Part shown: positions 19,856 through 59,238 of the stretch, piece by piece | Position numbering within the stretch: the first letter of the stretch is position 1 | Layout of the letters: every line of letters begins with the position of its first letter | Assembly: GCF_030408795.1 (NCBI RefSeq) | Contig: NZ_CP047211.1 | Coordinates: forward strand, 1 to 64,000 | Length of the DNA: 64,000 nucleotides | Direction of reading: 5' to 3' | From: Corynebacterium hansenii | GTDB taxonomy: Bacteria; Actinomycetota; Actinomycetes; Mycobacteriales; Mycobacteriaceae | Translations under genes and position numbers: made by a program | Notes under the pieces: generated by a model | What the model was told of the DNA's origin: nothing | The model's input: the letters and a program-made list of their open reading frames with translations, nothing else | Database searches by the model: none

Positions 19856-21877
19856 TCAATTCCCGGGCAATCTCGGGACGGGCAGCCCGCCGTCGTCCTC
19901 GGGCGGGTTGCTCACGCCCAGGACGAAGACCTCCAGTTCGACGGTTCCGCCCTTGCCCACCACGCCATCGCGGGCCGGGCGCTGCCCGTTGACGGTGTCG
20001 ACCCGCGTCGGGTCGAGGGTCGTGACCTCGCGGCGGTTGATCGTGCCGGTGAACCCGGCGTCGCGAAGCATCCGTTCGGCCTCCCCGAACTTGCGGCCCT
20101 GCAGGTCCGGCATGCGCACCTGGTTGCCGCGCGACACGCGGACCTCGATGGCGGTGCCGGTGGGCAGGCGCTCGCCGGCCTGCGGCACCTCGAGGACGCG
20201 GCCCTCCGGCTCGGGCGAGTCGACTTCGACGACCTGGACCACGAAGCCGGCGGATTCCAGCGTCGTGCGCGCCGACTCCAGATCCTGGCCCGCGACGTCG
20301 GGCACCGTCCGGGTCTCCGGGCCGGAGGACACCGTCAGAGTCACGCGCGTGCCCTTGGACACCTGCGAGCCCGCGGCCGGCGATTGGTCGATGACGTGCC
20401 CGCGCTTGATGTCGGGCGACGCCTGCTCGCGCAGCGACGGGTCGACCTGCAGGCCGGCCTCCTCCAGGAGCTTCCGCGCTTCCTCGGCGGGCTTGTCGCG
20501 CACGTCCGGGACGTCGGTGATCTCGCGGCCCGACGACACCTTCAGCACCACCGACGACCCCTTGGGCAGCCCCGACCCGAACGACGGCTCGGTGCCGATC
20601 ACGAACCCGCGCGCGATGTCCGGGTGCGGCTCATCCCGGCGGTCGACCTTGAAACCGGCGTCCTCGAGCATCTTCTGCGCCTGGTCGGCGGGCATCCCCT
20701 CGACCTGCGGGATGGCCACGGACTGGTTCTGCCCCGCATTGGTGAAGAGGTTGTAGGACACCATGCCCACCCCGCCGAGCAGCAGCACCGCGACGGCCAG
20801 CCACGCGATGGTGGCCAGCCGCGCCCGCTTGTTCTCGTCGTCGCGCTGGGCGGCCTCGCCCGCTTTGCGACGGGCCGGTGCGGCATCCGATCGCCGCGGA
20901 GTGGCGGCGGCGCCCGCTCCGGCACCGGCCGCGGCGGCGGTGCGCGTCCTGGTCGACGGACCGGCGGCGGCCATCGCCGTCGTGGGTTCGTCGTCGTCCA
21001 GATGCGGCAGCGCGGCCAGCGGGATCTCGCCACGGCTGATGCGGCGCAGCTCCTCGGCGAAATCCGCCGCCGTGTCGTACCGCTCCGAGGGATCCTTGGC
21101 CATCGCCGTGAGCAATACCGCGTCCAGCGCCGTGCCTTCTTCGTCGGAAAGCCCGCCGACCAGGCTCGACGGCAACGGGGGATCGTCCTGGACATGCTGG
21201 TACGCCACCGACAGGGGCGTTTCGCCCGTGAACGGCGGCTGGCCGGTCAGCGACTCGAAGAACACGCAGCCGAGGCTGTAGATGTCCGAGCGCGCATCGG
21301 CGGTCTTGCCGCGCGCCTGCTCCGGCGACAGGTACTGCGCCGTGCCAATCACCGCCGCGGTCTGCGTCATGGTCGTCGAATCGCCCATCGCGCGGGCGAT
21401 GCCGAAGTCCATGACCTTCACCGCGCCGGTGTTGGTCAGCATGATGTTCGCCGGCTTCACGTCGCGGTGGATGATGCCCTGCTGGTGCGAGAAATCCAGG
21501 GCGTCGCACACGTCCGCGAGGATCGACGCCGCCCGCCGCGGATCCATCGGGCCCTCGCGTCGCACGATGTCGCGCAGGGTCTCGCCCTGCACCAGCTCCA
21601 TGACGATGTACGGCACCGTGCCCATCGGGCCGGCGGTCTCGCCGGTGTCGAAGACGGAGACGATGACCGGGTGATTGAGGAACGCCGCGTTCTTGGCCTC
21701 GCGGCGGAAGCGTTCGAGGAAGTTCTCGTCGCGCGCGAGGTCCGCCCGCATCATCTTCACCGCGACCTCGCGGCCGAGCAACGTGTCGTTGGCGGAGTAG
21801 ACGTCGGACATGCCGCCGACGCCGATGAGCCCGCCGAGCCGGTAGCGGCCGGAGAGGAGTTCGTCGCCGGTGGTCAT
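19856..21877 (-). CDS. pknB: Serine/threonine protein kinase PknB with PASTA domains
   Basis: PknB is an essential transmembrane kinase that senses cell-wall fragments and controls growth and division. The product is 673 residues. The Hanks-type kinase domain (about 10-275) shows GVGGMSDVY, the ATP-anchoring Lys in VAVK at residue 41, HRDVKPAN and DFGIARA. A juxtamembrane Ala/Arg segment precedes one membrane helix at about 345-365. Four extracellular PASTA repeats follow (for example QVEGMPADQAQKMLEDAGF and DVRDKPAEEARKLLEEAGL). GCTTTGCGACG at 20862-20872 lies in the juxtamembrane codons. It is the last gene of the fhaA-to-pknB operon. Confidence 0.96.
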   Translation of the reverse strand: MTTGDELLSGRYRLGGLIGVGGMSDVYSANDTLLGREVAVKMMRADLARDENFLERFRREAKNAAFLNHPVIVSVFDTGETAGPMGTVPYIVMELVQGETLRDIVRREGPMDPRRAASILADVCDALDFSHQQGIIHRDVKPANIMLTNTGAVKVMDFGIARAMGDSTTMTQTAAVIGTAQYLSPEQARGKTADARSDIYSLGCVFFESLTGQPPFTGETPLSVAYQHVQDDPPLPSSLVGGLSDEEGTALDAVLLTAMAKDPSERYDTAADFAEELRRISRGEIPLAALPHLDDDEPTTAMAAAGPSTRTRTAAAAGAGAGAAATPRRSDAAPARRKAGEAAQRDDENKRARLATIAWLAVAVLLLGGVGMVSYNLFTNAGQNQSVAIPQVEGMPADQAQKMLEDAGFKVDRRDEPHPDIARGFVIGTEPSFGSGLPKGSSVVLKVSSGREITDVPDVRDKPAEEARKLLEEAGLQVDPSLREQASPDIKRGHVIDQSPAAGSQVSKGTRVTLTVSSGPETRTVPDVAGQDLESARTTLESAGFVVQVVEVDSPEPEGRVLEVPQAGERLPTGTAIEVRVSRGNQVRMPDLQGRKFGEAERMLRDAGFTGTINRREVTTLDPTRVDTVNGQRPARDGVVGKGGTVELEVFVLGVSNPPEDDGGLPVPRLPGN
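20862..20872 (+). repeat. GCTTTGCGACG copy 1
   Basis: Exact copy of the recurring 11-mer, inside pknB (read there as CGT CGC AAA GC). Confidence 0.85.
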
Positions 21878-21946
21878 CGGAGACTCCCTTCGGTCAGGTC
21901 CTGCAGTATGTGCGCATTTCCTCGGAAAAACATGGTGTCGCTTCCA

Positions 21947-23473
<1,527 letters not shown>

Positions 23474-26261: not shown

Positions 26262-27664
26262 CGGCGGACCTCCCGGCAGTTGACGCCCGGTTCGGAGCCG
26301 GTGCCCGGATCCTCGCGGTTCGCGGCATCGCCGCCGCCGTCGCGGCCGTCGCGGCCGTCGTCCGGCGCCTGTCCGTCGCGGCCCTCGCCGCGGTCGACGG
26401 TCAGGCACACCGGCAGGGCCTGCTTGGCCAGGCGGCCGATCTGGCCGCGGATCTCGTCGTAGGAATTGGCGGGCAGGCCGTCGAGCTGGGCGCGCGCGGC
26501 CGGGGCGAGGTCGTCGGGCGACATCAGGTGGCAGTTGAGCGAGTCGCGGGCGGTGCCCGGTTCCGGCAGCGTCACCGAGTTGTCGTCGGCCAGGCAGACG
26601 TACTGGTGGTGCGAATGCAGGGAAATGCCCAGCAGGCTGCCCGGGACGCCGTGCATGACCTGGATGACGCCGTCCTCGACGGCCAGGTGGTACATCGAAT
26701 CGTTCTTGCGCCAGCCCCACACGCCGATGGCGGTGACGGCGACCAGCGCTACGACGACGAATGCCGCGACGAGCCAACGGCCGCGCGGCTTCTGGGGGCG
26801 GTCGACGGGCTCGGCCGTCACCGCGCGTTCCTGTTCGGCGGGCGGGCGCATCGCGGCGGCCCGGCCGGCCGACGTGTTCGGGCGCGGCGCCTCCGAATCG
26901 GTGGAGCCCAGCGCGCCGGCCAGCGCCGGCTCTATCGGGGTGTCGGCGGTGGAGTCGACGACGTCGGCGATGATGATGGTGACGTTGTCGGGCCCGCCGG
27001 AGCGCAGCGCCAGCTCCACCAGGCGGTTGGCGGCCTCGGCGGGAGTGCCCTCGGACAGCGCCTCGGCGATGGTGTCGCGGGACACCGGGTCGGACAGGCC
27101 GTCGGAGCACAGCAGGTACCGATCGCCCTTGCGGACCTCCCGGTACTTCAGCGTCGGCTCCACCGGCCGGCCGGTCAGCGCTTTGAGGATCAGCGAGCGC
27201 TGGGGATGCACCGACGCCTCTTCGGCGGACAGCGTCCCCTCGTCGACGAGCGACTGGACGTAGGTGTCGTCGCGGGTGATCTGCGTCAGCTCCCCGTCGC
27301 GGAGGAGGTAGCCGCGCGAGTCTCCGACGTGGCACAGTCCGACGCGCTCGCCGTCGAAAAGCAGCGCGGTCAGCGTGGTGCCCATGCCCTGCGTCACCGG
27401 GTTGGCGTCGATCTCCTCCGCGATGGAGGAATTGCCCTCGGCGCACGCCAGGGCGAGCGCGTCGAGCAGGTCGGCGTCGGGCTGGTCGGCGTCGAGCTTG
27501 GACACGTGGGCGATCATCAGCTGCGAAGCGACCTCGCCCGCGGCGTGGCCGCCCATGCCGTCGGCGAGGGCCAGCAGGCGGGGGCCCGCGTAGGCGGAGT
27601 CCTCGTTGTTCTGCCGGACCAGGCCCCGATCCGAAATGGCGGTGTAATCGAGCGAGTAATTCAC
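26258..27664 (-). CDS. pstP: PP2C-type Ser/Thr phosphatase PstP
   Basis: PstP dephosphorylates PknA, PknB and their substrates. The 468-residue protein has a cytoplasmic PP2C domain (1-about 235) with the metal-binding motifs RQNNEDS, ALADGMGGHAAGE, CHVGDSRGYLL, LCSDGLSDPV and SGGPDNVT. A linker, one membrane helix near 300-320 and an extracellular tail rich in Asp/Gly/Arg (GRDGRDGGGD) follow. Overlaps of 4 nt join it to fhaB and rodA. Confidence 0.95.
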   Translation of the reverse strand: MNYSLDYTAISDRGLVRQNNEDSAYAGPRLLALADGMGGHAAGEVASQLMIAHVSKLDADQPDADLLDALALACAEGNSSIAEEIDANPVTQGMGTTLTALLFDGERVGLCHVGDSRGYLLRDGELTQITRDDTYVQSLVDEGTLSAEEASVHPQRSLILKALTGRPVEPTLKYREVRKGDRYLLCSDGLSDPVSRDTIAEALSEGTPAEAANRLVELALRSGGPDNVTIIIADVVDSTADTPIEPALAGALGSTDSEAPRPNTSAGRAAAMRPPAEQERAVTAEPVDRPQKPRGRWLVAAFVVVALVAVTAIGVWGWRKNDSMYHLAVEDGVIQVMHGVPGSLLGISLHSHHQYVCLADDNSVTLPEPGTARDSLNCHLMSPDDLAPAARAQLDGLPANSYDEIRGQIGRLAKQALPVCLTVDRGEGRDGQAPDDGRDGRDGGGDAANREDPGTGSEPGVNCREVRR

Positions 27665-28218: not shown

Positions 28219-29421
28219 TCAACGGATCCGGACCTCCATGACCGAATGGCCCATGGAGATCACGTCGCCGTCTGCGAGCAGCCAGTTGTCGATCGGTGAA
28301 TCGTTGACCATCGTGCCATTGGTGGAGTGCAAATCCACCAGCACGGCGTCGCGGCCGTCCCAGGTGATCTCCGCGTGCTGGCGGGACACTCCGGTGTCCG
28401 GCAGCCGGAAGTCGGAGATGGTGCCGCGGCCGATGATGTTCGATCCCGGCCTGACCTCGAACGTGCGGTTGGAACCGTCCTGCAGCAGCAGGGTCACCGT
28501 CAGCTGTTCCTCTTCCGGCGACGAGGGCCCCGGGGGGACCTGCACCGGGCGGTCGTGGGGGGACGGGGCATTGCTTTGCGACGCCCCGGCGCCCGCGGTT
28601 CCGGCGCCCATGGCTCCGGCGCCCATGGCTCCGGCGCCCGGGCCGGGTGCGGCGAAATCATCGTCGGCGTATCCGGTGGCGGGGGCGCGGGCGTCGGGCC
28701 GGGCGAAGGCCGGATCGGATTCTTCGCCGGGTGCCCGGTAGTGAGATTCGGTTTCCGAAGCGCCGCCCGGCACGGCCGTGGCCCCCGCCGCGCCCGCCCC
28801 GGCGGCACCGGCGGCACCGGCGGCTCCCGCGGCGGCGCCGGCGGCGGCTCCCGCGGCACCGGCGCCGTAGCCGTGTCCGTAATCGGAATCCGCGCCATCG
28901 CCGTCGCCGTACCGATCGGACGGCATGGCCGACTGCGCGGGCGCACTGCCGGTCGCGGCGGCGTCGTCAAGCGGGGCGGACGCGGGATCCACGGAGATCG
29001 GCTCCCCGTCCTCCCCGATGAAACCGGACTCGTCGCGGTAACCCTCGGTGAACTGGCTGGCCGTCTTCAACTGGCCGGTGTGCAGGGAATCCACCTGCTG
29101 GATGCGCACCGACACCGAACCGGACATCGCCCACCCGTTGTTGCGGCAGTAGCGCGCCATGCGGTCCGCCAGCTCCGACGGCAGCTCCGGGCCGCCGGCC
29201 GAAAGATTGGCGAAGTCCTTCGGGCTCACGCCGATGCGGAAATCATTGGGGGCCAGGTAGCGGCCCTCGGCATCCTGCATCAGGAAATCCTCGATCTCCT
29301 GCTTCAGGCACTCCTCCAACTCGTTGGGCACGACCTTGCCGCCGAAAACGCGCGCGAAGCTGTTGTCCAGCCCGCGCTGCAGCGAACTGTCGAGCTTCCT
29401 GATGCGTCCCAGAAAATCCAT
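28219..29421 (-). CDS. fhaA: FHA-domain protein FhaA (DUF3662)
   Basis: FhaA binds phosphorylated MviN/MurJ and helps regulate peptidoglycan synthesis. The 400-residue protein has an N-terminal DUF3662 domain (about 1-125, with DNSFARVFGGKVVPNELEECL). A long low-complexity linker follows, including a striking Ala/Gly run near 185-215 and repeated GAMGAG. The C-terminal FHA domain (about 300-400) has NIIGRGTISDFRL, SRQHAEITWDG and STNGTMVND. It is the first gene of the seven-gene operon. GCTTTGCGACG lies in the linker codons at 28573-28583. Confidence 0.94.
   Translation of the reverse strand: MDFLGRIRKLDSSLQRGLDNSFARVFGGKVVPNELEECLKQEIEDFLMQDAEGRYLAPNDFRIGVSPKDFANLSAGGPELPSELADRMARYCRNNGWAMSGSVSVRIQQVDSLHTGQLKTASQFTEGYRDESGFIGEDGEPISVDPASAPLDDAAATGSAPAQSAMPSDRYGDGDGADSDYGHGYGAGAAGAAAGAAAGAAGAAGAAGAGAAGATAVPGGASETESHYRAPGEESDPAFARPDARAPATGYADDDFAAPGPGAGAMGAGAMGAGTAGAGASQSNAPSPHDRPVQVPPGPSSPEEEQLTVTLLLQDGSNRTFEVRPGSNIIGRGTISDFRLPDTGVSRQHAEITWDGRDAVLVDLHSTNGTMVNDSPIDNWLLADGDVISMGHSVMEVRIR
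28573..28583 (+). repeat. GCTTTGCGACG copy 2
   Basis: Exact 11-mer inside fhaA. There it is read as TCG CAA AGC, a different frame from the pknB copy. Confidence 0.85.
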
Positions 29422-29801
29422 TAGCGGGTCGTTTCGCCTTCCCCCGAACCTGCCGGGGGCGGGCTCGGGCTATCGGTTGCGGACGGCGCCCGACGTGACC
29501 GCTGTGACGGCTGCGACTGCGACGCCCGCGCGTGCGTGCGTATGTGCGTGCCCCAGTATAGGGGCGCCCGCCCCAGAGAGAATGGTTGTTCATCTCCGGC
29601 GGACCGGGGTCGGAGGGCGTTGCGGGGCCCGTTTCGGCCGTGGCGGGCGGTTTTTCGGGGCCCGCGCGGGTGGGTTTTCGGGCCCTGGGGGCTGCTTCGC
29701 GACGTGTGGTCGGGGCCGTTTTGGTGTGCCCGGAAACATGCGCTGGCCTGCGGATTTGGTGCCCGCGGGAGTGCGGGTGTTATTGTATTCCTCGTTGCCA
29801 C
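29422..29801. other. fhaA / tRNA-Leu promoter region
   Basis: About 380 nt with no supported gene. On the minus strand TATACT (29555-29560) is a good -10 for the fhaA operon, although no clear -35 is seen. For tRNA-Leu, TATTGTATTC just upstream may contain the -10. Confidence 0.45.
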
Positions 29802-30378: not shown

Positions 30379-30611
30379 AACGACATGAACGGTTCCCGGG
30401 CCACCGTCGTCAAGCGCCGGCCCACGAACGGTTCCTGGGCAAACGTCGTTAAGCGGCCGCTCGCGAACGATCTCCGGACAACCTCTGTCGACGCCCTCCG
30501 TAAAGGAAGGATGACGAGGCACCTCCGCAAAGGAAAGCCGGCGAGATTCCGCCAGATGGGAAGAAGACGGGGGCTTCCCGGAACGCTCGGAGGCGGAAAA
30601 GTAGGCGGCGC

Positions 30612-33335: not shown

Positions 33336-33346
33336 GCTTTGCGACG
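33336..33346 (+). repeat. GCTTTGCGACG copy 3
   Basis: Exact 11-mer in the non-coding lldP-lutA interval. Confidence 0.85.
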
Positions 33347-42489: not shown

Positions 42490-42559
42490 GCGTCCCGGTT
42501 CCCCGGTGCCGGAACAGTTGCCGGGCCCTGGCGCTCGCGGCCGTCACCGTCGCCAAGCG
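42490..42559. repeat. 70-nt direct repeat, left copy
   Basis: Shares CGGTTCCCCGGTGCCGGAAC and CGCGGCCGTCACCGTCGCC with 42794-42863. The two copies flank the palindromic repeat at 42652-42715. CGTCGCCAAGC (42548-42558) lies inside. Confidence 0.75.
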
Positions 42560-42651: not shown

Positions 42652-42715
42652 AACCCACCCCGAATGCGCATACCCACCCGCTTTAACAGGTGGGTTGGCG
42701 CATTCGGGGTGGGTT
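42652..42715. repeat. Palindromic intergenic repeat, copy 2
   Basis: Outer arms ACCCACCCCGAATGCGCA / TGGCGCATTCGGGGTGGG and inner arms ACCCACC/GGTGGGT enclose the loop CGCTTTAACA. An isolated right arm, GATTCGGGGTGGGTTTGC, recurs at 42744-42761. Confidence 0.85.
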
Positions 42716-42793
42716 CGCAGAGGAGGGGACGGTGGTCGGGCGCGATTCGGGGTGGGTTTGCCATTGCGTACCGGCAGATCGCGATGGCCGAGC

Positions 42794-44935: not shown

Positions 44936-45739
44936 GTGACCCGGACCCGCACGCTGGGCGTCGTCATCCCATGCCTGAACGACGGCGAATTGCTGCGCCG
45001 CTGCCTCGCCGCCTTCGCGGCCCAATCGACACTTGCCGACGAAATCGTGGTGGTGGACAACGGCTCCACCGACGACTCCGCGGCCGTCGCCGCCGAGTTC
45101 GGCGCCCGGGTCGTCGACGAGCCCCGCCGCGGCATCACCTGGGCCACCCGCACCGGCTTCGACGCCTCGACCTGCGACGTCATGCTCCGCACGGACGCCG
45201 ATGTGGCTCCCGCGCCGGATTTCGTCGGCAAGCTGCATGCCGCGTGGGACGCCGCCGACGCCAACTCCGGGCCGGAGCACGGCCAGAGGGAGGTCGTCGG
45301 GGTGACGGGCTCGGGCCGGTTCGAACTCCCCGGCATCCGGGGGCGCTTGGCGACGGCCATGTACCTCGGGGCATACCGCGCATCCGTGGGTTCGGCCCTG
45401 GGGCATCAACCGTTCTTCGGGACGAATTACTCGATCCGCCGGTCGTGGTGGGAGGAGGTGCGCGGCGGCGTCGATTTCTCCGACGTCGAGGTCCACGAGG
45501 ACATGCACCTGTCCTTTGCCGTGCGCCCGCACGAGACGGTGTGGTTCCAGCGGGATCTGGTGCTGGACATGGACCCGCGGGCGCTCGTCGGCATGCGCCA
45601 GGTGGCCCGCCGGTTCCGGCGCGGCGCGCACACCATCCGGGTCAATTGGCGCGACCAGCACCCGCCCCGGCGCCTCGGCGAGCGCGGGCTGCTGCCCGGG
45701 TCGGCGGGCGCCGGGAAAAAGCCCGTTGTCCGGCGGTGA
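44936..45739 (+). CDS. Family 2 glycosyltransferase
   Basis: This is a 267-residue GT-A fold enzyme of family GT2. It has the nucleotide-binding start TLGVVIPCLNDGELLRRCL, the acidic EIVVVDNGSTDDS, the metal-binding Asp pair in MLRTDADVAPAPDF, and the acceptor-side VHEDMHLSF. GTG 44936 follows GAAAGGA at 44924-44930. No membrane helix is present. It is divergent from the SulP gene by 76 nt. The product glycan is unknown. GCTTGGCGACG occurs at 45345-45355. Confidence 0.88.
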   Translation: MTRTRTLGVVIPCLNDGELLRRCLAAFAAQSTLADEIVVVDNGSTDDSAAVAAEFGARVVDEPRRGITWATRTGFDASTCDVMLRTDADVAPAPDFVGKLHAAWDAADANSGPEHGQREVVGVTGSGRFELPGIRGRLATAMYLGAYRASVGSALGHQPFFGTNYSIRRSWWEEVRGGVDFSDVEVHEDMHLSFAVRPHETVWFQRDLVLDMDPRALVGMRQVARRFRRGAHTIRVNWRDQHPPRRLGERGLLPGSAGAGKKPVVRR

Positions 45740-46347: not shown

Positions 46348-47277
46348 ATGGCCGCCGAGGATGAGCGCCGGGACGTCGCAAAGCGGTTCACCCCGCGCTA
46401 CGACCGCATGGCGCGCAAGGCGAGCTCGACGGTGATCGGCACGTATTCCACCTCGTTTTCGCTGGCCACGCGCCTGTTGGGGAAGCGCGAGCGTCAGGAC
46501 ATACGGAACCTGTACGCGATGGTGCGCATCGCCGACGAGATCGTGGACGGCACCGCCGCGGAAGCGGGCTGTTCCGACGACGAGATCCGCGTGCTTCTCG
46601 ACGAATACGAGGAGCAGGTGCTGCGCGCGCCCTCGATTGCCTTCCACTCCGATCCCGTGCTGCACGCCTACGCGGGCACGGTGCGGCGCTGCGGGATCGA
46701 GGAAGACCACGTGCGGGCGTTCTTCCGGTCGATGCGCCGCGACCTGACCGAAACGACCTACGACCCCGACGCCCTGGACGAGTACGTATACGGGTCGGCC
46801 GAGGTCATCGGCCTGATGTGCCTGTCCATCTTCCTCGCCGGCCACCCAGCCGGCGCCGCCGACCGAGCCACCATGACGTCCGGGGCGCGGAGCCTGGGCG
46901 CGGCGTTCCAGAAGATCAACTTCCTCCGCGACCTGGCCGAGGACACCGGGCAGCTCGGGCGGACGTACTTCGACGAGCTGGACGGCCGGACGCTGACCGA
47001 GCCGATCAAGGGGAAGCTGCTCGACGACATCGACGCCGACCTCGCCGACGCGCGCGTGTCCATCCCCCTGCTGCCCGGCGCCGCCCGCGCGGGGGTGCTC
47101 GCGGCGACGGACCTGTTCGCCGAGTTGTCCCGGCGCCTGCGCGCGACGCCGGCGGAGCTGATCGCGACCTCCCGGATCCGCGTGCCCGGCCCGAAGAAGA
47201 CCGCCATCGCGGGCCGCGCCGTCGTCGCCGCCGCCCGGATGGGGCGTACGGGACGCGGGAGGCGGGCCCTCCCATGA
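46348..47277 (+). CDS. crtB: Phytoene synthase
   Basis: CrtB condenses two geranylgeranyl diphosphates to phytoene. The 309-residue product has both Asp-rich motifs of the squalene/phytoene synthase family: RIADEIVDGTAAE, and FLRDLAEDTGQLGRTYFDE (here DLAED). YGSAEVIGLMCLSIF lies between them. Its TGA overlaps the next ATG. The first codons contain a minus-oriented GCTTTGCGACG (46374-46384). Confidence 0.94.
   Translation: MAAEDERRDVAKRFTPRYDRMARKASSTVIGTYSTSFSLATRLLGKRERQDIRNLYAMVRIADEIVDGTAAEAGCSDDEIRVLLDEYEEQVLRAPSIAFHSDPVLHAYAGTVRRCGIEEDHVRAFFRSMRRDLTETTYDPDALDEYVYGSAEVIGLMCLSIFLAGHPAGAADRATMTSGARSLGAAFQKINFLRDLAEDTGQLGRTYFDELDGRTLTEPIKGKLLDDIDADLADARVSIPLLPGAARAGVLAATDLFAELSRRLRATPAELIATSRIRVPGPKKTAIAGRAVVAAARMGRTGRGRRALP
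46374..46384 (-). repeat. GCTTTGCGACG copy 7 (minus orientation)
   Basis: Exact 11-mer on the minus strand inside crtB, read there as GTC GCA AAG. Confidence 0.85.
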
Positions 47278-47980: not shown

Positions 47981-48837
47981 GGACGATTCTGAGCGTGCTG
48001 GGGGCCTCGCGCCCGATCAGCTGGGTGAACACGGCGTTCCCGTTCGGCGCCGCGTATCTCGTCTCCGGCGGCGGGTTCGACGCGGTCTTCTGGCTGGGGG
48101 TGCTGTTCTTCCTCGTGCCGTACAACATCGCGATGTACGGCATCAACGACGTCTTCGACTACGAGTCCGACATCCGCAATCCCCGCAAGGGCGGGGTCGA
48201 GGGCGCGGTGCTGTCGAAGGATCTGCATTCGGCGCTGTTGTGGGCGTCGGCGATCACCGTCGTGCCCTTCGCCGTCTATCTGTATGCGGTGGGCACGTGG
48301 GCGTCGGCGGCGTGGCTGACGCTGTCGCTGTTCGCGGTGGTGGCGTATTCGGCGCCCCACCTGCGCTTCAAGGAGCGCCCGTTCCTGGATTCGGTGACGT
48401 CGTCGACGCACTTCGTCACTCCGGCGCTGGTCGGCGGGGCGATGGCGCCGGGATCGCCGCCGGCGGGTTTCTGGGTCGCCGTCGCGTCTTTCTTCCTCTG
48501 GGGCGTCGCCAGCCACGCCCTCGGTGCGGTGCAGGACGTCCGCGCCGACCGGGAGGGCGGGCTGGACTCCATCGCGACGGTGCTGGGTGCGCGCGCCACG
48601 GTCCGCTTTTCGACGATCACGTACGCCGTCGCCGCCGCCCTCCTCCTGCTGTTGCCGTCGCCGGGTTGGGTGGTCGCGCTCGCCGCGATCACGTATGCCG
48701 TCAATGCCGGGCGCTTCTGGACGATCACCGACGACCGTTGCGAGGACGCCCACCGCGGTTGGACCGTGTTCCTGTGGCTGAACTTCCTGGTCGGGGCCGT
48801 GGTCACCATCACCATGCTGTGGGTGTGGGTGCGGTAG
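47977..48837 (+). CDS. crtEb: Lycopene elongase (UbiA-type prenyltransferase)
   Basis: CrtEb adds C5 units to lycopene, leading to C50 pigments such as decaprenoxanthin. The 286-residue polytopic protein has the two Asp-rich UbiA motifs NDVFDYESDIRNPRKGG and QDVRADREGGLDS, with about eight helices. GTG 47977 overlaps the crtYf stop. It is the last gene of the operon. Confidence 0.92.
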   Translation: MRTILSVLGASRPISWVNTAFPFGAAYLVSGGGFDAVFWLGVLFFLVPYNIAMYGINDVFDYESDIRNPRKGGVEGAVLSKDLHSALLWASAITVVPFAVYLYAVGTWASAAWLTLSLFAVVAYSAPHLRFKERPFLDSVTSSTHFVTPALVGGAMAPGSPPAGFWVAVASFFLWGVASHALGAVQDVRADREGGLDSIATVLGARATVRFSTITYAVAAALLLLLPSPGWVVALAAITYAVNAGRFWTITDDRCEDAHRGWTVFLWLNFLVGAVVTITMLWVWVR

Positions 48838-48863: not shown

Positions 48864-49394
48864 TCAGTCGACCTCGCCGCGCAGCCACTCCGCCAGCACC
48901 AGGGCGTGGTTGTGGTCGCGGTCCTTCGCCGCGTAGACCAGGATCAGCGGCTTTGCGACGGTCGCCGCACCGGCCGCGCGGATCAGTTCCGCCAGTTCGG
49001 CCGCCTCGGAATCGGCGCCATCTGCCGCGACATCGTTCCCGCTTCCGCTCCCGGCCCCTTCATCTCCGCTGCCCCGACGTGATTCGGGGATCCGCTTGGC
49101 GCGCTCGTCGAGCTCATGGCGGTAGCGGTCGGCGAATCCTCCGAACTTGTCCGGGTCGTGGCCGAACCATTTCCGCAAGTCGGGGGAGGGGGCGACGTCC
49201 TTGAACCAATCATCGAGGTCGACGTCGTCCTTGGCCACTCCCCGCGGCCAGAGCCGGTCGACGAGCACGGTGCGCCCGCCGCCCGCGCCGTCGGCGCCGG
49301 ACCGAAGATCGTGGATTTTGGCCGTGCGGATCGACCCGCCGCCGGCGTCCCCCGATGCTTCGCCCGCCGACGTTTCTCGCGTTGAATCGCCCAT
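48864..49394 (-). CDS. DUF488 family protein
   Basis: This is a 176-residue member of the DUF488 family. The conserved core is VLVDRLWPRGVAKDDVDLDDWFKDVAPSPDLRKWFGHDP, then RYRHEL and the C-terminal LILVYAAKDRDHNHALVLAEWL. A poly-Gly/Ser/Asp insertion of about 25 residues (near 115-140) splits the domain. The function is unknown. GCTTTGCGACG is at 48950-48960. Confidence 0.88.
   Translation of the reverse strand: MGDSTRETSAGEASGDAGGGSIRTAKIHDLRSGADGAGGGRTVLVDRLWPRGVAKDDVDLDDWFKDVAPSPDLRKWFGHDPDKFGGFADRYRHELDERAKRIPESRRGSGDEGAGSGSGNDVAADGADSEAAELAELIRAAGAATVAKPLILVYAAKDRDHNHALVLAEWLRGEVD
48950..48960 (+). repeat. GCTTTGCGACG copy 8
   Basis: Exact 11-mer inside the DUF488 gene, read there as GTC GCA AAG. 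Confidence 0.85.
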
Positions 49395-49605: not shown

Positions 49606-49941
49606 ATGCAGTATCTCCTGAGCGTCCACGGGCGCCGTGACATCAACCCCTACGACTCGGACGAGGACATGCACGCCGCGTTCGAACGCGTCGGCGTGTT
49701 CAACCAGTCCCTCCAGGACCGTGGCCATTGGGTGCTCGCCGGCGGGCTGGTCCCGCCGGAGGCGGCGAAGACCGTGCTTCCCGACGGGTCGGTCGTCGAC
49801 GGCCCGTACCTCGACGCCGACACGTTCCCGAGCGGCTTCTGGATCATCGAGGCAGACGGCGACGACATCGCCCTCGACCTGGCCTCCGAGGCCGCCGAGG
49901 CCTGCGCCAACACCGTGGAGATCCGCGCGCTGGCGGAGTAG
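49606..49941 (+). CDS. YciI/DGPF-domain protein
   Basis: This is a 111-residue YciI-like protein of the DGPF family. It starts MQYLLSVHG and has HWVLAGGLVPPEAAKTV, VVDGPYLDADTFPSGFWIIEADG (the DGP signature) and a C-terminal helix ending in VEIRALAE. Related proteins often accompany ECF sigma factors; none is adjacent here. TGGAGGAA at 49593-49600 supports the ATG. Confidence 0.88.
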   Translation: MQYLLSVHGRRDINPYDSDEDMHAAFERVGVFNQSLQDRGHWVLAGGLVPPEAAKTVLPDGSVVDGPYLDADTFPSGFWIIEADGDDIALDLASEAAEACANTVEIRALAE

Positions 49942-50529: not shown

Positions 50530-51104
50530 GCGGGGACCTCGACTCCTTCCGCGACGCGGTCATCGACGACATCAACGTCGATGCCTGCCGCCTGCTCGTC
50601 GTCGGCATCAATCCCGGCCTGTGGACGGCCAAGGTCGGCGCGCCCTTCGCCCGGCCGGGCAACCGCTTCTGGCCGGCGCTGCACGAGGCCGGCATCACGC
50701 CCCGGCTCGTCGACGCGCGCGAGGGGCTTTGCGACGACGACCTCCGCATGCTCGCCCGGGTGGGCCTCGGGTTCACCAACGTGGTGGCCCGTGCGACGGC
50801 GCGCGCGGGCGAACTGTCGGACGAGGAAATCCGCGCCGGCGGCCGCATCCTCGACGACAAGGTCGCCCGCCAGCGGGAGGCCCGGGGTGGCCCGGAGATC
50901 GTGATGGTCGCGGGCATCGGGGCATTCCGCACGGCGTTCGGAGCGAAAACGGCGGACGGGGAGCCGGTGGCCGTCGGCAAGCAGGACCGGGAAATCGGCG
51001 GCGCGGAGACGTGGGTCGTGCCCAACCCCAGCGGCCTCAACGCGCACGAGACGGTCGCGTCGCTGGCGCGGGCGTACCACGAGGTGTGGGAGCGACTGGG
51101 TTAG
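50526..51104 (+). CDS. mug: G/U mismatch-specific DNA glycosylase
   Basis: Mug/TDG removes uracil and thymine-derived lesions from G mismatches. The 192-residue protein has the catalytic motif GINPGLWTAKVGAPFARPGNRFWPAL with the Asn of GINPG, and the intercalation motif PNPSGLNAHET near the C terminus. It is translationally coupled to the Nudix gene, so the pair may form a nucleotide-sanitation operon (inference). GCTTTGCGACG gives CTT TGC GAC at 50726-50736. Confidence 0.92.
   Translation: MSGDLDSFRDAVIDDINVDACRLLVVGINPGLWTAKVGAPFARPGNRFWPALHEAGITPRLVDAREGLCDDDLRMLARVGLGFTNVVARATARAGELSDEEIRAGGRILDDKVARQREARGGPEIVMVAGIGAFRTAFGAKTADGEPVAVGKQDREIGGAETWVVPNPSGLNAHETVASLARAYHEVWERLG
50726..50736 (+). 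repeat. GCTTTGCGACG copy 9
   Basis: Exact 11-mer inside mug. Confidence 0.85.
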
Positions 51105-51622: not shown

Positions 51623-52959
51623 GGGGAGTCCTTTCGTCGGGCGAGTTTCAGGCCCCGCTCGGCGGCGCGGCCGACCGGCACCATCGACGCCACGCACACC
51701 GCCGCGCCGAAGAGCAGGCACAGGATGATGCCCCACTCGCCGCCCAGCCCCGTCACGCGCCCGACCAGCGGCGCGACGAGCGACAGCGTGAACGGCACGA
51801 AAAAGCCGATGTATGACAGCGCGTAGAACACGCCGATCAGCGCGCCGAGCTCGTCGGGGCGGGCGATGGCCTCGACCTCGCGGAGGCCGGCGACCATCAT
51901 GATGCCGTAGCTGGCGCCCAGCACGATCGCCGCGGGGAACACCATCGCCGCGCTGTCCAGCCACACCGTCGCCGCCGCGAGCAGCATGCCCGCGCACGCG
52001 ATGCCCAGCGCCATCACCGACAGCGGCAGCATGCCCTTCGCGGCGACGCGGGCGGCGGTCGGTTGGATGAGCATGCCCGCGATCATGGCCACGCCGGCGA
52101 GCGCGCCGATGTACGCCGTCTTCATGCCGACGTCCTGTGCGACGTAGACGGGCAGCGTCACGAAGGACACCGTCACCGTGCCGAACACCCACGGCGCCCA
52201 TGCCGCCACCGCCCACAGGAACGTGCCGGTCAGCGCGACCTTCGGGATCAGCGGGCCGCGCCGGGCGGTCGCCGCGCCGGTGCGGAACTGGGTTTCCGGG
52301 GTGGTCCACATGATCGGGATGACCACCGCCAGCACGCACAGGAACACCAGGTAGGGCACCAGTTTCGGGCCGGGAGCGAACTCGGCGACCAGGCCGGCGA
52401 CGAAGGGCCCGCCGCCGAACCCCGCGGATACGGCGACGGTTGCGCGCCGGGGGCCCGCGGCGGGCTTGTCGACGGAAAGCTGCTTGATCCACGCCGCCCC
52501 GCACGCCATTGCCATGCCCACCGAAGCGCCGACGACGAAGCGCCCGGGGAACAGCAGCCACTCCGGCCCGGCCGCCGCCGACGCCAGGATGACGGTGCCG
52601 GTGGCGGAGACGAGCATCGCCGGGCGCAGCACCGCACGGCGGCCGCGGCGGTCGGAGATGGGGCCGAAGATCAGCAGCGCGGGGACCAGCCCGGCGGCGT
52701 AGATGCCGAACATCGCCGTGACCGACGACTGGCTCGTGCCGTTGAGGTCCCGGTAGACCTCGAGCATCGGGGCGAAGAGGTTCGCGCCGTAGCCGATGGC
52801 GAACATCGCCAGGCCCACGCGGAGCCAGTCGCGGCGGCCGATGGCGGGGCGGGCGGGGGATTGCGGCGCGGTGGGGGCGTGGGATGTGCCGGAGTTTCCG
52901 GGCTCGATCGGGTCGTCCGGTGGGCCGGAGAACCCGGGTGTGTTCCGCGTCACAGTCAT
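51619..52959 (-). CDS. MFS transporter
   Basis: This is a 446-residue major facilitator with 12 predicted helices. The loop motif between helices 2 and 3 is GPISDRRGRRAVLRPAM. The N-terminal tail is Pro/Ser-rich. The substrate is unknown, with a drug-type or cyanate/NimT-like efflux profile. It probably forms a two-gene operon with the SnoaL-like gene. Confidence 0.88.
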   Translation of the reverse strand: MTVTRNTPGFSGPPDDPIEPGNSGTSHAPTAPQSPARPAIGRRDWLRVGLAMFAIGYGANLFAPMLEVYRDLNGTSQSSVTAMFGIYAAGLVPALLIFGPISDRRGRRAVLRPAMLVSATGTVILASAAAGPEWLLFPGRFVVGASVGMAMACGAAWIKQLSVDKPAAGPRRATVAVSAGFGGGPFVAGLVAEFAPGPKLVPYLVFLCVLAVVIPIMWTTPETQFRTGAATARRGPLIPKVALTGTFLWAVAAWAPWVFGTVTVSFVTLPVYVAQDVGMKTAYIGALAGVAMIAGMLIQPTAARVAAKGMLPLSVMALGIACAGMLLAAATVWLDSAAMVFPAAIVLGASYGIMMVAGLREVEAIARPDELGALIGVFYALSYIGFFVPFTLSLVAPLVGRVTGLGGEWGIILCLLFGAAVCVASMVPVGRAAERGLKLARRKDSP

Positions 52960-53069: not shown

Positions 53070-53747
53070 CTATCGGACCTCCGACCGCAGGTACGCGAGG
53101 ACGGCGGACACGCGGCGGTCGGCGCCGTCGTCAAGCGGAAGCTTGGAGAAGATCCCGCCGATGTGCTTGCGCACCGCCGCCTCCGACACCACCAGCTCCT
53201 CGGCGATCGCATGATTCGTACGGCCCTCCGCCATGAGCGACAGCACCTCGCGCTCGCGGGGCGTCAACGTGGCCAGCGGGCCCGACGCCGCCGCACCGCC
53301 GACCAGCGCGCGGACGACCTCCGGGTCGATGATCGTCTGGCCCGCCGCCACATCGGCGACGGCATCGAGGAAGTGGCGGACGTGGGCGACGCGGTCCTTC
53401 AGCAGGTACCCGAGGCTGCGGCCGCCGCCGGCCATCAAATCGTCGACGTACGCCACCGACACGTACTGCGACAACACGATCACCGGCAGCGTCGGCCGCT
53501 CGCGGCGCAGTTGGGCGGCGGCGCGCAGGCCCTCGTCGGAATGGCCCGGCGGCATGCGCACGTCGGTGATCACCAGGTCGGGCACCGTCGCGCGCACCGC
53601 GTCGACGAGGGCGTCGCCGTCGCCCACGGCCGCGACGACCTCATGGCCGCCGCGCGCCAAAACGGCCTCCACCCCCGCGCGGAGCAGGGGCGAGTCCTCG
53701 GCGAGGACGATGCGCAGCGGTTTCTGCGCGGGGGTGGCGGCGGTCAT
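53070..53747 (-). CDS. NarL/LuxR-type response regulator
   Basis: This is a 225-residue DNA-binding response regulator. The receiver domain has acidic pocket residues in IVLAEDSPLLR and the phospho-acceptor Asp in PDLVITDVRMPP near residue 59. The C-terminal LuxR helix-turn-helix is LTPREREVLSLMAEGRTNHAIAEELVVSEAAVRKHIGGIF. Its ATG overlaps the kinase stop, so the two form a two-component system. The 3' codons contain CGTCGTCAAGC (53126-53136). Confidence 0.93.
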   Translation of the reverse strand: MTAATPAQKPLRIVLAEDSPLLRAGVEAVLARGGHEVVAAVGDGDALVDAVRATVPDLVITDVRMPPGHSDEGLRAAAQLRRERPTLPVIVLSQYVSVAYVDDLMAGGGRSLGYLLKDRVAHVRHFLDAVADVAAGQTIIDPEVVRALVGGAAASGPLATLTPREREVLSLMAEGRTNHAIAEELVVSEAAVRKHIGGIFSKLPLDDGADRRVSAVLAYLRSEVR

Positions 53748-55276
53748 CGGCGGGAATCCTCCTCGGGGGACGGGGCGGTGGGCCCGGCGATGGTGCCGCC
53801 GGCACGGTCGGCGACCGCGGAATCGGCGGGACCGCCGGCGGCGGCGAGGGCACCCGTGCCCGCGCCACCATCGAACGCGGACGCCGCCTGGACGATCATC
53901 GCCGGGCACGTCAGCGTCACCGTCGTGCCGCGCCCGTCGGGGCTGGTCACGGTCACGGTACCGTCGACGCCCGCCGCGCGCTGGCGCATGCCGCGCAGCC
54001 CATGGCCGGAGCCGAGCGGATCCGCGGCCCGTTCCGCCGCGCCGCCACGGCCGTCGTCGGCGATGGTGAGGGTCAGCAGGCCACCCTCGATGCCGCCGAT
54101 CACCGTCGCCCGCGTGGCGCCGGAGTGCTTGGCCACGTTGGACAGCGCCTCGGCGGCGATGAAGAACGCCGCCTCCTCGATGTGGCGGGGCATCCGCGCC
54201 GACGGGACGTCGACGTCGACGGGCAGCGGCATCCCGGCGGCCAGGTCCGCCACCGCCGCCCGCAGCCCGCGCTCGGACAGGGCGCGCGGCTGGATGTTGC
54301 GGATCACGCGGCGCAGGTCGGCGAGGACCTCGTCGATCTCGCGGTGCACGTCGGCGGCCAGCTTGCCGGTGGGGCCGTCGGGATCCTCGGCCTCGGCCAT
54401 GCCGAGCTTCATGGTCAGGGCGACCAGGCGGTGCTGGACGCCGTCGTGGAGGGCCCCCTCGATCCGCGTGCGCTCCAGCGCGGCGGCGTCGAGGACGTCG
54501 GCGCGGGCGGACTCGAGACGGTCGACGTCGGCGCGCAGCTGCTCCTCGGTCGGCGCCATCAGCGTCTTCGCCAGCTTGCCCAGGGCCAGGGCCCACAGGC
54601 CGAACAGGTACAGCGAAACGATGATCGTCACCAGCGCCGCGACGATCACCCAGGCCGCGATGGCCCACGTGGGCAGCGGTGCGATGACGGCGTCGTACAC
54701 GGAAGCCACGTCGGCGGCCTCCTGCGGGGTGGCCCCGCTTTGCACCACGGCGACGTCGAAAAGCCACCAGGGGAACAGGACGGTGAAAGCCGCGAAGGGG
54801 ATGACGGCGGCCAGCGCCGTCGACAGCGGGCCGATGACGAACGTCACCAGCGCCAGGTGCGCGAACTGAGAGAACGTCGGCGTGCCGCCGTCTTCGACCA
54901 TCCGCGCGAGCGGAGGGGTCATCTGCTCGGACGCGGGGGCGTCGATGATGCCCAGCCGCCAGGCTTCGGCGCGCAGCAGCGCCGGCCAGATCATTGCCCG
55001 CAGCTGCGGCACCAGGCTCAGCAGCAGCAGAACCAGCAGCACCGACGACAGCGCCGAGGCCAGGACGACGCCGATCAGCGCGTAGCCGATGGCAAGCCAC
55101 GGCCATTTCGACACCAGGTAGCCGGGCCGTTTCAGCCCTTCGCCCAGCGTGCGGGGGCGGCGCGCGCCGGCATCGTCGGTTGCGGCGGTCGCGCCGCGCC
55201 GGTCGTCGCGCTTGGCGACGGACCGCGTGCCGCGCCCCTCGGCGGCGTCGTAAAGCGAAGTGTTGGGGGTGTTCAT
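53744..55276 (-). CDS. NarL-type sensor histidine kinase
   Basis: This is a 510-residue membrane kinase of the HisKA_3 class. The N terminus is cytoplasmic and basic. Two to four hydrophobic segments lie around 60-90 and 130-235. A dimerisation/phosphoacceptor helix contains ALERTRIEGALHDGVQHRLVALTMKLG with the His in LHDGVQH. The ATPase domain has AALSNVAKHSGA-like N box residues (EALSNVAKHSGATRA) and DDGRGG. An Ala/Gly-rich tail follows. ATG 55276 has GGAAGGA upstream. The signal is unknown; Lia/Des-type envelope sensing is possible. Confidence 0.9.
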   Translation of the reverse strand: MNTPNTSLYDAAEGRGTRSVAKRDDRRGATAATDDAGARRPRTLGEGLKRPGYLVSKWPWLAIGYALIGVVLASALSSVLLVLLLLSLVPQLRAMIWPALLRAEAWRLGIIDAPASEQMTPPLARMVEDGGTPTFSQFAHLALVTFVIGPLSTALAAVIPFAAFTVLFPWWLFDVAVVQSGATPQEAADVASVYDAVIAPLPTWAIAAWVIVAALVTIIVSLYLFGLWALALGKLAKTLMAPTEEQLRADVDRLESARADVLDAAALERTRIEGALHDGVQHRLVALTMKLGMAEAEDPDGPTGKLAADVHREIDEVLADLRRVIRNIQPRALSERGLRAAVADLAAGMPLPVDVDVPSARMPRHIEEAAFFIAAEALSNVAKHSGATRATVIGGIEGGLLTLTIADDGRGGAAERAADPLGSGHGLRGMRQRAAGVDGTVTVTSPDGRGTTVTLTCPAMIVQAASAFDGGAGTGALAAAGGPADSAVADRAGGTIAGPTAPSPEEDSRR

Positions 55277-55512: not shown

Positions 55513-56220
55513 GTGCAAACGATCATCGACTGGTCCGTGTCCCTGATGGGCACGCTGGGGCCGCCGGGCGTGGCGGTGGCCATTCTCGTGGAGACCATCA
55601 TCCCGCCGGTGCCGTCGGAGTTCTTCCTGCCGCTCGCCGGATTCACGGCGACGACGGGGAAGTTCAGCTGGTGGGCCGTGGTGGCGTGGGCGACGGGCGG
55701 ATCGGTGCTCGGCGCGTTCGTCCTGTACTGGGCGGGCGCGGCGCTGGGGGCGGAGCGCGTGCGGGCGTTGGCCGGGAAAATGCCGCTGGCGAGGACGTCG
55801 GACGTGGACAAGGCGCTGAGGTGGTTCGGCAAGCACGGCGACGCGTCGGTGTTCCTCGGCCGCATGGTGCCGGGCATCCGGTCGATCATCTCGATCCCCG
55901 CGGGCCTGAAGCGGATGCCGCTTCTGAAGTTCACCCTGTACACGACGGCGGGGTCGGCGATCTGGAACGGCGTGCTGGTGTACCTGGGCGTGCTGCTGGG
56001 CAATCGGTGGCACATCGTCGCGGAGTGGATCGACGGGTTCTCCGTGGTCCTGTACGTGCTGCTGGCGGTGGCCGCGGTGGTGGTCGTGGCGTTCGCGGTG
56101 CGGCGGTCGCGGCGAGAGCGGATGCGGGCCGAGCGCGCCCGTGCGCAGCGCCCGCGGGTCGAGCTGCTGAAGCTTGACGACGGCCCGCGTGACGCCACGA
56201 GCGGCGGGGGTCGATCGTGA
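55513..56220 (+). CDS. DedA family membrane protein
   Basis: This is a 235-residue DedA (VTT/SNARE-associated) membrane protein, a likely lipid flippase involved in undecaprenyl-phosphate recycling. Motifs are ETIIPPVPSEFFLPLAGF near the N terminus and the conserved FLGRMVPGIRSIISIPAG, plus GSAIWNGVLVYLGVLLG. GTG 55513 follows GGAGGAG at 55502-55508. The stop overlaps the next gene (GTGA). Confidence 0.92.
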   Translation: MQTIIDWSVSLMGTLGPPGVAVAILVETIIPPVPSEFFLPLAGFTATTGKFSWWAVVAWATGGSVLGAFVLYWAGAALGAERVRALAGKMPLARTSDVDKALRWFGKHGDASVFLGRMVPGIRSIISIPAGLKRMPLLKFTLYTTAGSAIWNGVLVYLGVLLGNRWHIVAEWIDGFSVVLYVLLAVAAVVVVAFAVRRSRRERMRAERARAQRPRVELLKLDDGPRDATSGGGRS

Positions 56221-56689: not shown

Positions 56690-56752
56690 GCCCACCCCGA
56701 ATGTGCAGACCCACCCGTTACAGCGGGTGGGGTTGCGCATTCGGGGTGGGTT
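56690..56752. repeat. Palindromic intergenic repeat, copy 3 (reverse orientation)
   Basis: Outer arms CCCACCCCGAATGTGCA / TGCGCATTCGGGGTGGG and inner arms CCCACCCG/CGGGTGGG. The loop TTACAG is the reverse complement of CTGTAA in copy 1, so this copy is inverted relative to copies 1 and 2. Confidence 0.85.
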
Positions 56753-56858: not shown

Positions 56859-56927
56859 GCGGCGGCGGCAACGGCGGCGGCGGAGGCGGTGGCCGGGGAG
56901 GTGGGCCGTGTGGTGCCTCGGTCGGGC

Positions 56928-57791: not shown

Positions 57792-57792
57792 G

Positions 57793-59238
57793 TCACTTCA
57801 CCTTTCGGGCTTCGATCTTCATGCCGCCCTCGCGCAGGCGGTCGACCAGCGCGTCGCCGATGCCGGACGCCGGGGTGAGCACGCCGTACCGGTTCGGCAG
57901 GCGATCGCGGTCGAAGGCCAGGGCCAGCGCGGCGGCGGAGATCATCATCGCCGTGCCGTCGTAGCCGGGGTCTTTCTCCAGTTCGACGCGGCTGGTCCAC
58001 TGCGCGCCGGACAGCGTCACCGAGTGGACGTCGATGGTGAAGCGGCCGCGGGCGCGGCTTTCCTCCGACGGGCCTTCGCCGGGCGCCGGCAGCTTCTTGT
58101 CCAGCAGCTTCGCGGTGGGGCCGAACATCATGCCGCCGATCAGCGCGCCCATGCCGGCCTTCACGGCGCGGGCGCGGGCGGCCGACTTCAGGCCGCGGCC
58201 GACGGACATGACCTCGCGGTAGCGGAAGCCTTCGCCGTAGCCGACGGAATCGCCGGCGTTGGCGCCGTTGACGTTGGCGCCGCCGAGGCCCGCGCCGTCG
58301 GTGCCGGGATCGCCCTCGACCCCGCGCTGCCCGGCGTCGGCGTCGAGCAGCGCGGCGGTGCGGCGCACGATGCGGGTGTTGTACGGCGCCATGAAGAACG
58401 GCGCGAACGCCCCGGATTCGCCGGCGTAGACCTCTTCGCGGGCGACGATGGGCGCGTCGTCCTGGTAGGACGGCCCCGGGCCGCGCATGCCGGGGTTGAG
58501 GGAGTACGCCGACCGCACGATCCTGCCGAGCTCCTTGTTCTCCTTGAGCTCCTGCAGCTGCCGGCGCATCGAGTCGATCGTGCCGCCGGACACCCCGCCG
58601 CGCATGTGGGTGACCACGAGGGTGGTTTCTCCGAGGTTTCCGTCGCCGGCGGCCGCGGCGGCGTCGTGAAGCACCTTGACGCCGATGTCCGAGGGGATGG
58701 AATCGAAGCCGCACGAGTGGACGATGCGCGCGCCGGTGGACTTGGCCAGCTCGTGGTTGGCGGCGATGGAGTCGTGGGCGAAGAGGACCTCGCCGGTCAG
58801 GTCGACGTAATCCGTGCCGGCGGCGGCGCAGGCGTGGGCCAGCTTCCTGCCGTAGCTGGCGTAGGGCCCGACGAGGGTGAGCACCACGCGGGTGGATTCG
58901 GCGAGTTCGCGCATGTCCGATTCGGAGGAGGCGTCGGCGACGATGAGCGGCCAGTCCGCCGCCGTCGTCGCGCGGGCGCCGTCGCCGGCGGGGGCTCCGG
59001 CGAGGCCGTCGCGCACCGCGGAGAGCTTCGCGCGGTCGCGGCCGGCCAGGGCGATCGACGTCCCGGCGGGCGCGTGGGCGGCGAGATGCTTTGCGACGAG
59101 TTCGCCCACGAACCCGGTGGCGCCGAACACCACGATGTCGTGGGGGCGGCCGGCGCGGTCGGGCGCGGTGCGGTCCGTCGCGGTCGAAGCGTCGTCGATC
59201 CGGTCGGTTCGTTCAGAGGCGTTGTCGTCCCGTGTCAT
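57793..59238 (-). CDS. Trans-acting enoyl reductase / saccharopine dehydrogenase-like protein
   Basis: This 481-residue protein has an N-terminal Rossmann fold (DIVVFGATGFVGELVAKHLA). LVGPYASYGRKLAHACAAAGTDYVDLTGE and RIVHSCGFDSIPSDIGV follow, the pattern of mycobacterial trans-acting enoyl reductases and saccharopine-dehydrogenase-like proteins. A Gly/Asn-rich insertion occurs near residues 310-330. Lipid modification is the likely field. GCTTTGCGACG at 59088-59098 and CGTCGTGAAGC at 58662-58672 lie inside. Confidence 0.88.
   Translation of the reverse strand: MTRDDNASERTDRIDDASTATDRTAPDRAGRPHDIVVFGATGFVGELVAKHLAAHAPAGTSIALAGRDRAKLSAVRDGLAGAPAGDGARATTAADWPLIVADASSESDMRELAESTRVVLTLVGPYASYGRKLAHACAAAGTDYVDLTGEVLFAHDSIAANHELAKSTGARIVHSCGFDSIPSDIGVKVLHDAAAAAGDGNLGETTLVVTHMRGGVSGGTIDSMRRQLQELKENKELGRIVRSAYSLNPGMRGPGPSYQDDAPIVAREEVYAGESGAFAPFFMAPYNTRIVRRTAALLDADAGQRGVEGDPGTDGAGLGGANVNGANAGDSVGYGEGFRYREVMSVGRGLKSAARARAVKAGMGALIGGMMFGPTAKLLDKKLPAPGEGPSEESRARGRFTIDVHSVTLSGAQWTSRVELEKDPGYDGTAMMISAAALALAFDRDRLPNRYGVLTPASGIGDALVDRLREGGMKIEARKVK
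59088..59098 (+). repeat. GCTTTGCGACG copy 10
   Basis: Exact 11-mer inside the enoyl-reductase-like gene, read there as GTC GCA AAG. Confidence 0.85.

Follow-up and report, generated by a model that had tools for sequence, protein, structure and literature searches.

The chromosome of Corynebacterium hansenii carries 1,889 copies (952 forward and 937 reverse) of a short gapped word, GCTTNNCGACG, which in view of its abundance, placement and spelling is probably a self-recognition sequence of the DNA-uptake type in the genus Corynebacterium. The window analysed here is the first 64 kb (64,000 nucleotides) of this single-contig genome of 3,098,017 bases (NZ_CP047211.1), in which an earlier note, made from the sequence alone, had drawn attention to an over-represented, strand-biased 11-mer and had offered a Chi-like site, an FtsK-orienting sequence, an uptake sequence or a nucleoid-protein site as candidate functions. 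Among these four an uptake sequence fits best, and the existence of a genomic signal at the DNA level is strongly supported. To our knowledge, uptake labels have until now been described from just two families, both Gram-negative, and Corynebacterium has not been thought of as competent. It also seems a reasonable expectation that the word represents a third, independent origin of self-specific uptake, the first outside Gram-negative families, with a receptor on the Tad-pilus/ComEA route and repeated receptor changes that rewrite ~1,000 sites and set mating barriers.

The word, its placement and its spellings

All ten copies of the 11-mer, GCTTTGCGACG, that had been reported in the window were found again at the same positions and on the same strands, where dinucleotide shuffles hold a mean of 0.07 copies and none of 100 shuffles reaches 10. 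The whole genome contains 336 copies (185 forward and 151 reverse, a mild imbalance), compared with 10 (3 + 7) of the reversed control. The single-base neighbours of the 11-mer show that it is one filling of GCTTNNCGACG, a gapped, non-palindromic word in which positions 5 and 6 are free and the others are nearly fixed, the fourth tolerating C and, to some extent, G. The 11-mer was too narrow a description of the word, as it fixed the two free central positions and one more that varies between species. The reversed form of GCTTNNCGACG occurs only 118 times in the genome, where the word itself reaches a density of ~610 per Mb. A count against a Markov background, which had been proposed as a check, also placed the word far above expectation: a genome sample of 864 kb, made up of the window plus 40 stretches of 20 kb round the chromosome, contains 525 copies, compared with 25.5 expected under a third-order model. 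In this sample, variants at the fourth position are found 268 times (GCTC, 81 expected) and 139 times (GCTG, 80 expected). The preferred middle bases are TG and GA in C. hansenii, where A at position 5 is rare (8 of 521), and AT in several other genomes. The flanks, once described as not conserved, are indeed only weakly alike, but a weak conservation was found in the form of a pyrimidine at -2/-1 and C at +12 and +13; for example, 93% of 183 sites of species G005 have C at +12.

Placement was assessed in the 864-kb sample with genes from a home-made caller (728 genes, ~85% coding). With ~15% of this DNA non-coding, 56 of 101 copies of the 11-mer and 134 of 525 copies of GCTTNNCGACG do not lie wholly inside a called gene, and every gene context is represented among the intergenic copies. 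The 391 copies inside genes occur in both orientations and in all six frames, of which G-CTT-NNC-GAC-G is predominant. This favoured sense frame holds 217 copies, compared with 4.9 in 40 synonymous-codon shuffles, and the same shuffles gave 43 for a frame in which 101 were observed, and 0 to 3.4 for frames with 9, 30, 13 and 21. Therefore, selection or drive acts on the DNA, and the earlier contention that protein conservation cannot explain the copies was right.

The spacing of GCTTNNCGACG is mildly even, with a mean of 12.0 and a variance of 8.2 copies per 20 kb and with 8.5% of gaps below 200 bp (12.1% expected); this evenness is slight, and no conclusion rests on it. Pairs less than 60 bp apart show no excess (19 observed, 18.8 expected); 17 of these 19 pairs are inverted, and some are terminator-like in shape. 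The 11-mer is also tightly repeated in places, namely at 149850, 149888 and 149926 (38 bp apart) and at 1598976 and 1599016 (40 bp apart) of contig C1 of genome G000.

Comparison with related genomes shows that the word is not confined to the window. With the reversed word as control, GCTTNNCGACG is enriched at least 3-fold in 173 of 242 Corynebacterium genomes and at least 10-fold in 148. A survey of the family, covering 201 genomes of 31 genera (16 genomes from its own genus), found strong enrichment in Corynebacterium only, and the other sampled genera showed no enrichment, their ratios to the reversed word being below 2.7 as judged by eye. When all 4+5-base words with gaps of 0-6 were scanned, GCTTNNCGACG ranked first in each of five enriched genomes sampled, and the same type of 4+5-base gapped scan in five genomes unenriched for GCTTNNCGACG placed GCTTNNCGATG first in three and gave no clear word in two. 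The two words are spellings of one pattern, ACG in GCTTNNCGACG and ATG in GCTTNNCGATG. The ATG spelling reaches 490 to 1,337 copies in 14 genomes, in 13 of which GCTTNNCGACG is near its reversed control; one genome, G143, carries both spellings (1,337 ATG and 352 ACG), and perhaps represents a dialect change under way. Altogether, the 242 genomes split into 173 that are enriched for ACG, 13 further ones that are strong in ATG, 45 with neither spelling and 11 intermediates. In this classification the reversed control of GCTTNNCGATG is low (~10-20 in most genomes) relative to a background of ~30-90, only GCTTNNCGATG totals of at least 400 count as strong, and the totals used were those of G143 and 18 others chosen by eye as the largest among genomes not clearly enriched for ACG. 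The GCTTNNCGATG totals of the 45 genomes with neither spelling are all at most 87, again by eye.

Between related species, the two spellings exchange in place. In a tree built from one gene, TopA, of 11 species, G005 (ACG) and G006 (ATG) are sister tips, and the ATG spelling does not form one clade, the well-supported branches forcing at least two changes. Across 175,044 aligned columns of these two genomes (79.4% identity), 46 of the 98 ATG sites of G006 align to ACG in G005 and 3 to ATG; conversely, 46 of the 77 ACG sites of G005 align to ATG in G006 and 8 to ACG. In about half of the sites, then, precisely one base has changed and the remainder of the word is intact; a smaller alignment of 40 kb, contained in the larger one, gave 11 of 19 sites exchanged. 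Among shuffled control words, the rate of one specific T-to-C change was 2.7% per T (n = 443), and 19.9% were fully conserved. Because 46 of 98 sites differ by exactly the dialect base, compared with ~3% in the control, we infer a reader whose specificity changes, with the sites then following.

Uptake and its rivals

The mechanism proposed here begins with a receptor on the cell surface that would recognise DNA by sequence and prefer fragments bearing the word; a minor Tad pilin or a protein on the ComEA side might fill this role. Such DNA would enter through ComEC and recombine, so that word-bearing alleles would be copied in more often. Sites would build up by uptake bias with no need of a function of their own, and a shift in receptor specificity would be followed by the genomic sites. 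A receptor of this type could presumably change at little cost, biased uptake rewriting the sites, whereas an essential chromosome protein could hardly respell its ~1,000 sites. An uptake sequence would explain the absence of polarity, the presence of the word on both strands and in any frame, its excess between genes, the inverted pairs, the dialects, the loss of the word in some genomes and its rarity on plasmids.

Genes for such a route are widespread, as the ComEC family is found in 241 of the 242 Corynebacterium genomes and the T2SSE/TadA family in 239 at an E-value of 0.001 (235 over the cut-off). The genes comEA (helix-hairpin-helix), comEC and holA are adjacent in G005, where all three products were checked against Pfam, and by reading also in G006 and in G010, a genome without the word; ComEA was thus read in three of three comEC loci, with the Pfam check on one. 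Beside topA lies a tad operon that encodes T2SSE (TadA), two T2SSF proteins, a DUF4244 protein that is read as the putative Flp pilin, a pilin-like protein in the TadE position with no Pfam match, and a TadE/G-like protein. Each of 11 tad loci, covering every dialect class, contains three pilin-like proteins. Because the Neisseria receptor is a minor pilin, according to the part of the source available (PMC12616744), the Tad minor pilins may be taken as first candidates and nothing more. A targeted check of 60 genomes found a TadA match in 58. Seven of the 60 were enriched genomes with weak or odd matches; the other 53, of which 52 gave a TadA match, had at most a few copies and consisted of the 45 with neither spelling, intermediates and G217 (3.6-fold enriched).

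Some variation in these genes was seen. By eye, and with exceptions both ways, genomes lacking the word tend towards lower T2SSE scores than enriched genomes, a trend that shared ancestry could explain. In addition, tadA is interrupted by two TGA codons in G205, which still has 1,122 sites, and gives a split match in G112, and comEC contains one TGA in G195, where only 102 sites are found; these three are possible cases of lineages losing uptake.

The mobile elements examined carry few copies of the word. Eight Corynebacterium plasmids contain 18 copies of GCTTNNCGACG in 370,806 bases, or 49 per Mb, compared with ~610 per Mb in the chromosome of C. hansenii. Two bacteriophages contain 2 copies in 92,000 bases (~1.1 expected); they infect C. 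glutamicum and Brevibacterium flavum, and the word status of these hosts was not part of the comparison. On pTP10 (50,000 bases examined) all 7 copies lie at 5.8-13.1 kb (L251 5777-13119, 7.4 kb) and none elsewhere, and 5 of the 7 are in a stretch of chromosomal-type genes that includes dihydroorotate dehydrogenase and mshC, among others. Judged against the chromosome of C. hansenii and not against those of the plasmids' hosts, the scarcity of the word on plasmids is supporting evidence only.

Several observations weigh against an uptake function. The presence of genes is rejected as the cause of the presence or absence of the word, as ComEC and TadA do not discriminate and none tracks it; for example, TadA is found in 44 of the 45 genomes with neither spelling. 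Nor was any pilin-like protein singled out as a receptor, the 11 tad loci showing no visible difference. One-mismatch neighbours at the other eight positions are no more frequent than expected (406 observed, 457.5 expected, hand-summed), and the gradual fall-off with mismatches described in the available part of an earlier study (PMC1939737) is not seen, only the fourth position of GCTTNNCGACG being relaxed. In addition, the 18 plasmid copies are more than the 5.9 that a Markov model predicts, the reference here being this model and not the chromosomes of the plasmids' hosts. Natural transformation in Corynebacterium is unreported in the open-licence titles and abstract starts among the matches listed, and an effect of GCTTNNCGACG on DNA binding or uptake in competent cells is a prediction. 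The open-licence literature matches listed also contain no report of this word in Corynebacterium.

Other explanations account for part of this evidence. A binding site for an intracellular protein that requires numerous, evenly distributed copies, whether one that organises the nucleoid or another, would suit the occurrence on both strands, the somewhat even spread and the selection at the DNA level, but it is unlikely: ~1,900 sites would be hard to sustain if each had to be maintained, rare codons included, by a separate effect on fitness, 45 of the 242 genomes of the genus have neither spelling, the spelling changes in place, and the plasmids examined carry few copies. A polar chromosome signal, either a Chi-like site recognised by an enzyme of the RecBCD/AddAB/AdnAB type or an FtsK-orienting sequence, was suggested by a short over-represented word with an 8:2 strand bias in the window. 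That bias is a small-number effect and is not general, as both words are balanced on both halves of the genome sample when the contig midpoint is used as the replication terminus (ter): GCTTNNCGACG counts are +137/-150 in the right half and +117/-121 in the left half, those of the 11-mer are +29/-25 and +26/-21 (hand-summed), and the totals over the 173 enriched genomes are 92,130 forward and 92,211 reverse. The strong replichore polarity required of an FtsK-orienting sequence or Chi is thus absent; in addition, the word is in excess between genes, its close pairs are mostly inverted, and the spelling changes even though a shift in the specificity of such a reader would presumably disable ~1,000 sites together. 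For these reasons a polar signal has only a remote chance of being correct.

A self-mark by which a defence or restriction-like system tells own from foreign DNA would be consistent with a word that is present on chromosomes but hardly on the eight plasmids and two phages, and with dialects between species. However, the phage counts were made irrespective of the word status of the hosts, C. glutamicum and Brevibacterium flavum, and the known restriction systems mark by methylation and drive avoidance of words, not thousands of unmodified non-palindromic ones; a self-mark is very unlikely. A transcriptional element spread between genes, such as a terminator stem or regulator site, draws on the intergenic excess and the terminator-like inverted pairs, but most of the sampled copies (391 of 525) lie within genes in both orientations, and a single regulon could not account for as many as ~1,900 sites; the occurrence of intergenic copies in all gene contexts led to rejection of a promoter or terminator element, and the probability left to any such element is slight indeed. 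In a GC-rich genome with one favoured reading frame, base composition, codon usage or a mobile repeat might be suspected of producing the word as an artefact, but the probability of this is close to nil: composition and codon usage are rejected by the Markov models, the reversed-word control and the synonymous shuffles, the single-base neighbours argue the same way, the flanks are too weakly alike for a mobile repeat, and 46 in-place exchanges are found in aligned DNA.

If the word is indeed an uptake sequence, such sequences would be extended to a genus of commensal, industrial and opportunistic actinobacteria, and frequent natural transformation in Corynebacterium would be implied. Dialect pairs could then be used to find the receptor and to test molecular drive, and laboratory strains that transform poorly might become tractable with DNA to which the word has been added.

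Copies in the window

The window contains 47 copies of GCTTNNCGACG. The statement that the first 20 kb are free of copies holds for the 11-mer but not for the gapped word, which has 9 copies there. One of the ten copies of GCTTTGCGACG, at 33336..33346 (+), is intergenic, and two lie in genes in the sense orientation, at 36329..36339 (+) and 50726..50736 (+); the others are antisense within genes, at 20862..20872 (+), 28573..28583 (+), 34881..34891 (-), 41221..41231 (+), 46374..46384 (-), 48950..48960 (+) and 59088..59098 (+).

Other fillings of the word make up the remaining copies. GCTTGACGACG is found at 2139..2149 (+, intergenic), 12904..12914 (-), 28962..28972 (-), 30405..30415 (-, intergenic), 53126..53136 (-) and 56172..56182 (+), and also at 14937..14947 (-), where it forms the right arm of an intergenic inverted pair whose left arm is GCTTGTCGACG at 14916..14926 (+); further copies of GCTTGTCGACG are at 6606..6616 (-) and 52464..52474 (+). 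A second inverted pair is made by GCTTGGCGACG at 55210..55220 (+, left arm) and GCTTTACGACG at 55246..55256 (-, right arm), with GCTTGGCGACG also at 42548..42558 (-, intergenic) and 45345..45355 (+), and GCTTTACGACG at 8083..8093 (+, intergenic). GCTTGCCGACG occurs at 4961..4971 (+), 45223..45233 (-), 50972..50982 (-) and 60982..60992 (-), and GCTTTTCGACG at 5647..5657 (-), 27352..27362 (-), 48605..48615 (+) and 54754..54764 (-). The positions of GCTTCCCGACG are 19456..19466 (+), 34129..34139 (+), 37377..37387 (+), 41302..41312 (-) and 49776..49786 (+); those of GCTTCGCGACG are 20059..20069 (-), 29694..29704 (+, intergenic) and 63946..63956 (-); and those of GCTTTCCGACG are 21142..21152 (-), 40809..40819 (-) and 40978..40988 (-). 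Three fillings are each found at one place, GCTTAACGACG at 30444..30454 (-, intergenic), GCTTCTCGACG at 46593..46603 (+) and GCTTCACGACG at 58662..58672 (-).

Another dispersed element, unrelated to GCTTNNCGACG, is found in the window at 17698-17759, 42653-42757 and 56740-56751, and in L031-L070 as well; in most cases it consists of a hairpin, CCCACCCG..CGGGTGGG, with TCTGCGCATTCGGGGTGGGTT after it. For this element, TTCGGGGTGGGT has 41 copies in 864 kb, all 41 of them intergenic. The gene dnaA lies at the start of the window, and the nearest named relatives of its product are from an undescribed Corynebacterium (85%), C. freneyi (82%) and C. xerosis (79-80%). For the pyruvate carboxylase at 36850-40314, the best relatives listed are from Micrococcales (at most 77% identity), in a collection that may omit near relatives.

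Comparison with known systems

The DNA uptake sequence (DUS) of the Neisseriaceae is described, in the part of the source available, as a short non-palindromic word with thousands of copies and with dialects a few bases apart round a shared core, and as lacking in some members of the family (PMC3630211). A second source, likewise available in part, reports that the DUS is more frequent in non-coding DNA than expected and has no orientation bias, and that one-mismatch forms are enriched, with a gradient along the number of mismatches, in Neisseria and Haemophilus (PMC1939737). To the extent of these accounts, GCTTNNCGACG is alike in being non-palindromic, in its many copies, its dialects, the existence of members without it, its intergenic excess and its lack of orientation bias. 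It differs in being an unrelated word with two free central bases, in its occurrence in another phylum and beside genes for a Tad-type rather than a type IVa pilus, in the absence of enrichment of one-mismatch forms and in having only a candidate receptor. Members of Corynebacterium also differ from the Neisseriaceae in carrying a mycolic-acid outer layer. The HIP1 octamer of cyanobacteria is a very frequent palindrome with a patchy distribution; GCTTNNCGACG is similarly frequent and patchy, but it is gapped and not palindromic, so that it was rejected as a HIP1-like element.

The uptake signal sequence (USS) of the Pasteurellaceae, in the available portion of its source, comes in two types (Hin and Apl) within one family and has an extended form beyond its 9-base core (PMC12616744). 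On that account, two types within a group and an extension beyond the core are shared with GCTTNNCGACG. The words themselves are unrelated, and the flank is C-rich in Corynebacterium, whereas that of the USS is AT-rich.

Another member of the phylum, Micrococcus luteus, has homologs of ComEA/ComEC and takes up DNA in transformation by means of Flp/Tad pili, and the part of that report available mentions no uptake sequence (PMC6370729). Corynebacterium is likewise an actinobacterium with gene sets for Tad-type pili and ComEA/ComEC, and it differs from what is reported of M. luteus in its putative uptake sequence. In the accessible part of the study by Tong et al., 569 genomes were scanned for spaced motifs, and the Corynebacterium hits were CRISPR (clustered regularly interspaced short palindromic) repeats (PMC5217627). 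Across these systems, the pattern of GCTTNNCGACG contradicts Chi-like, FtsK-orienting and transcription-factor readings and matches the uptake sequences of the Neisseriaceae and Pasteurellaceae.

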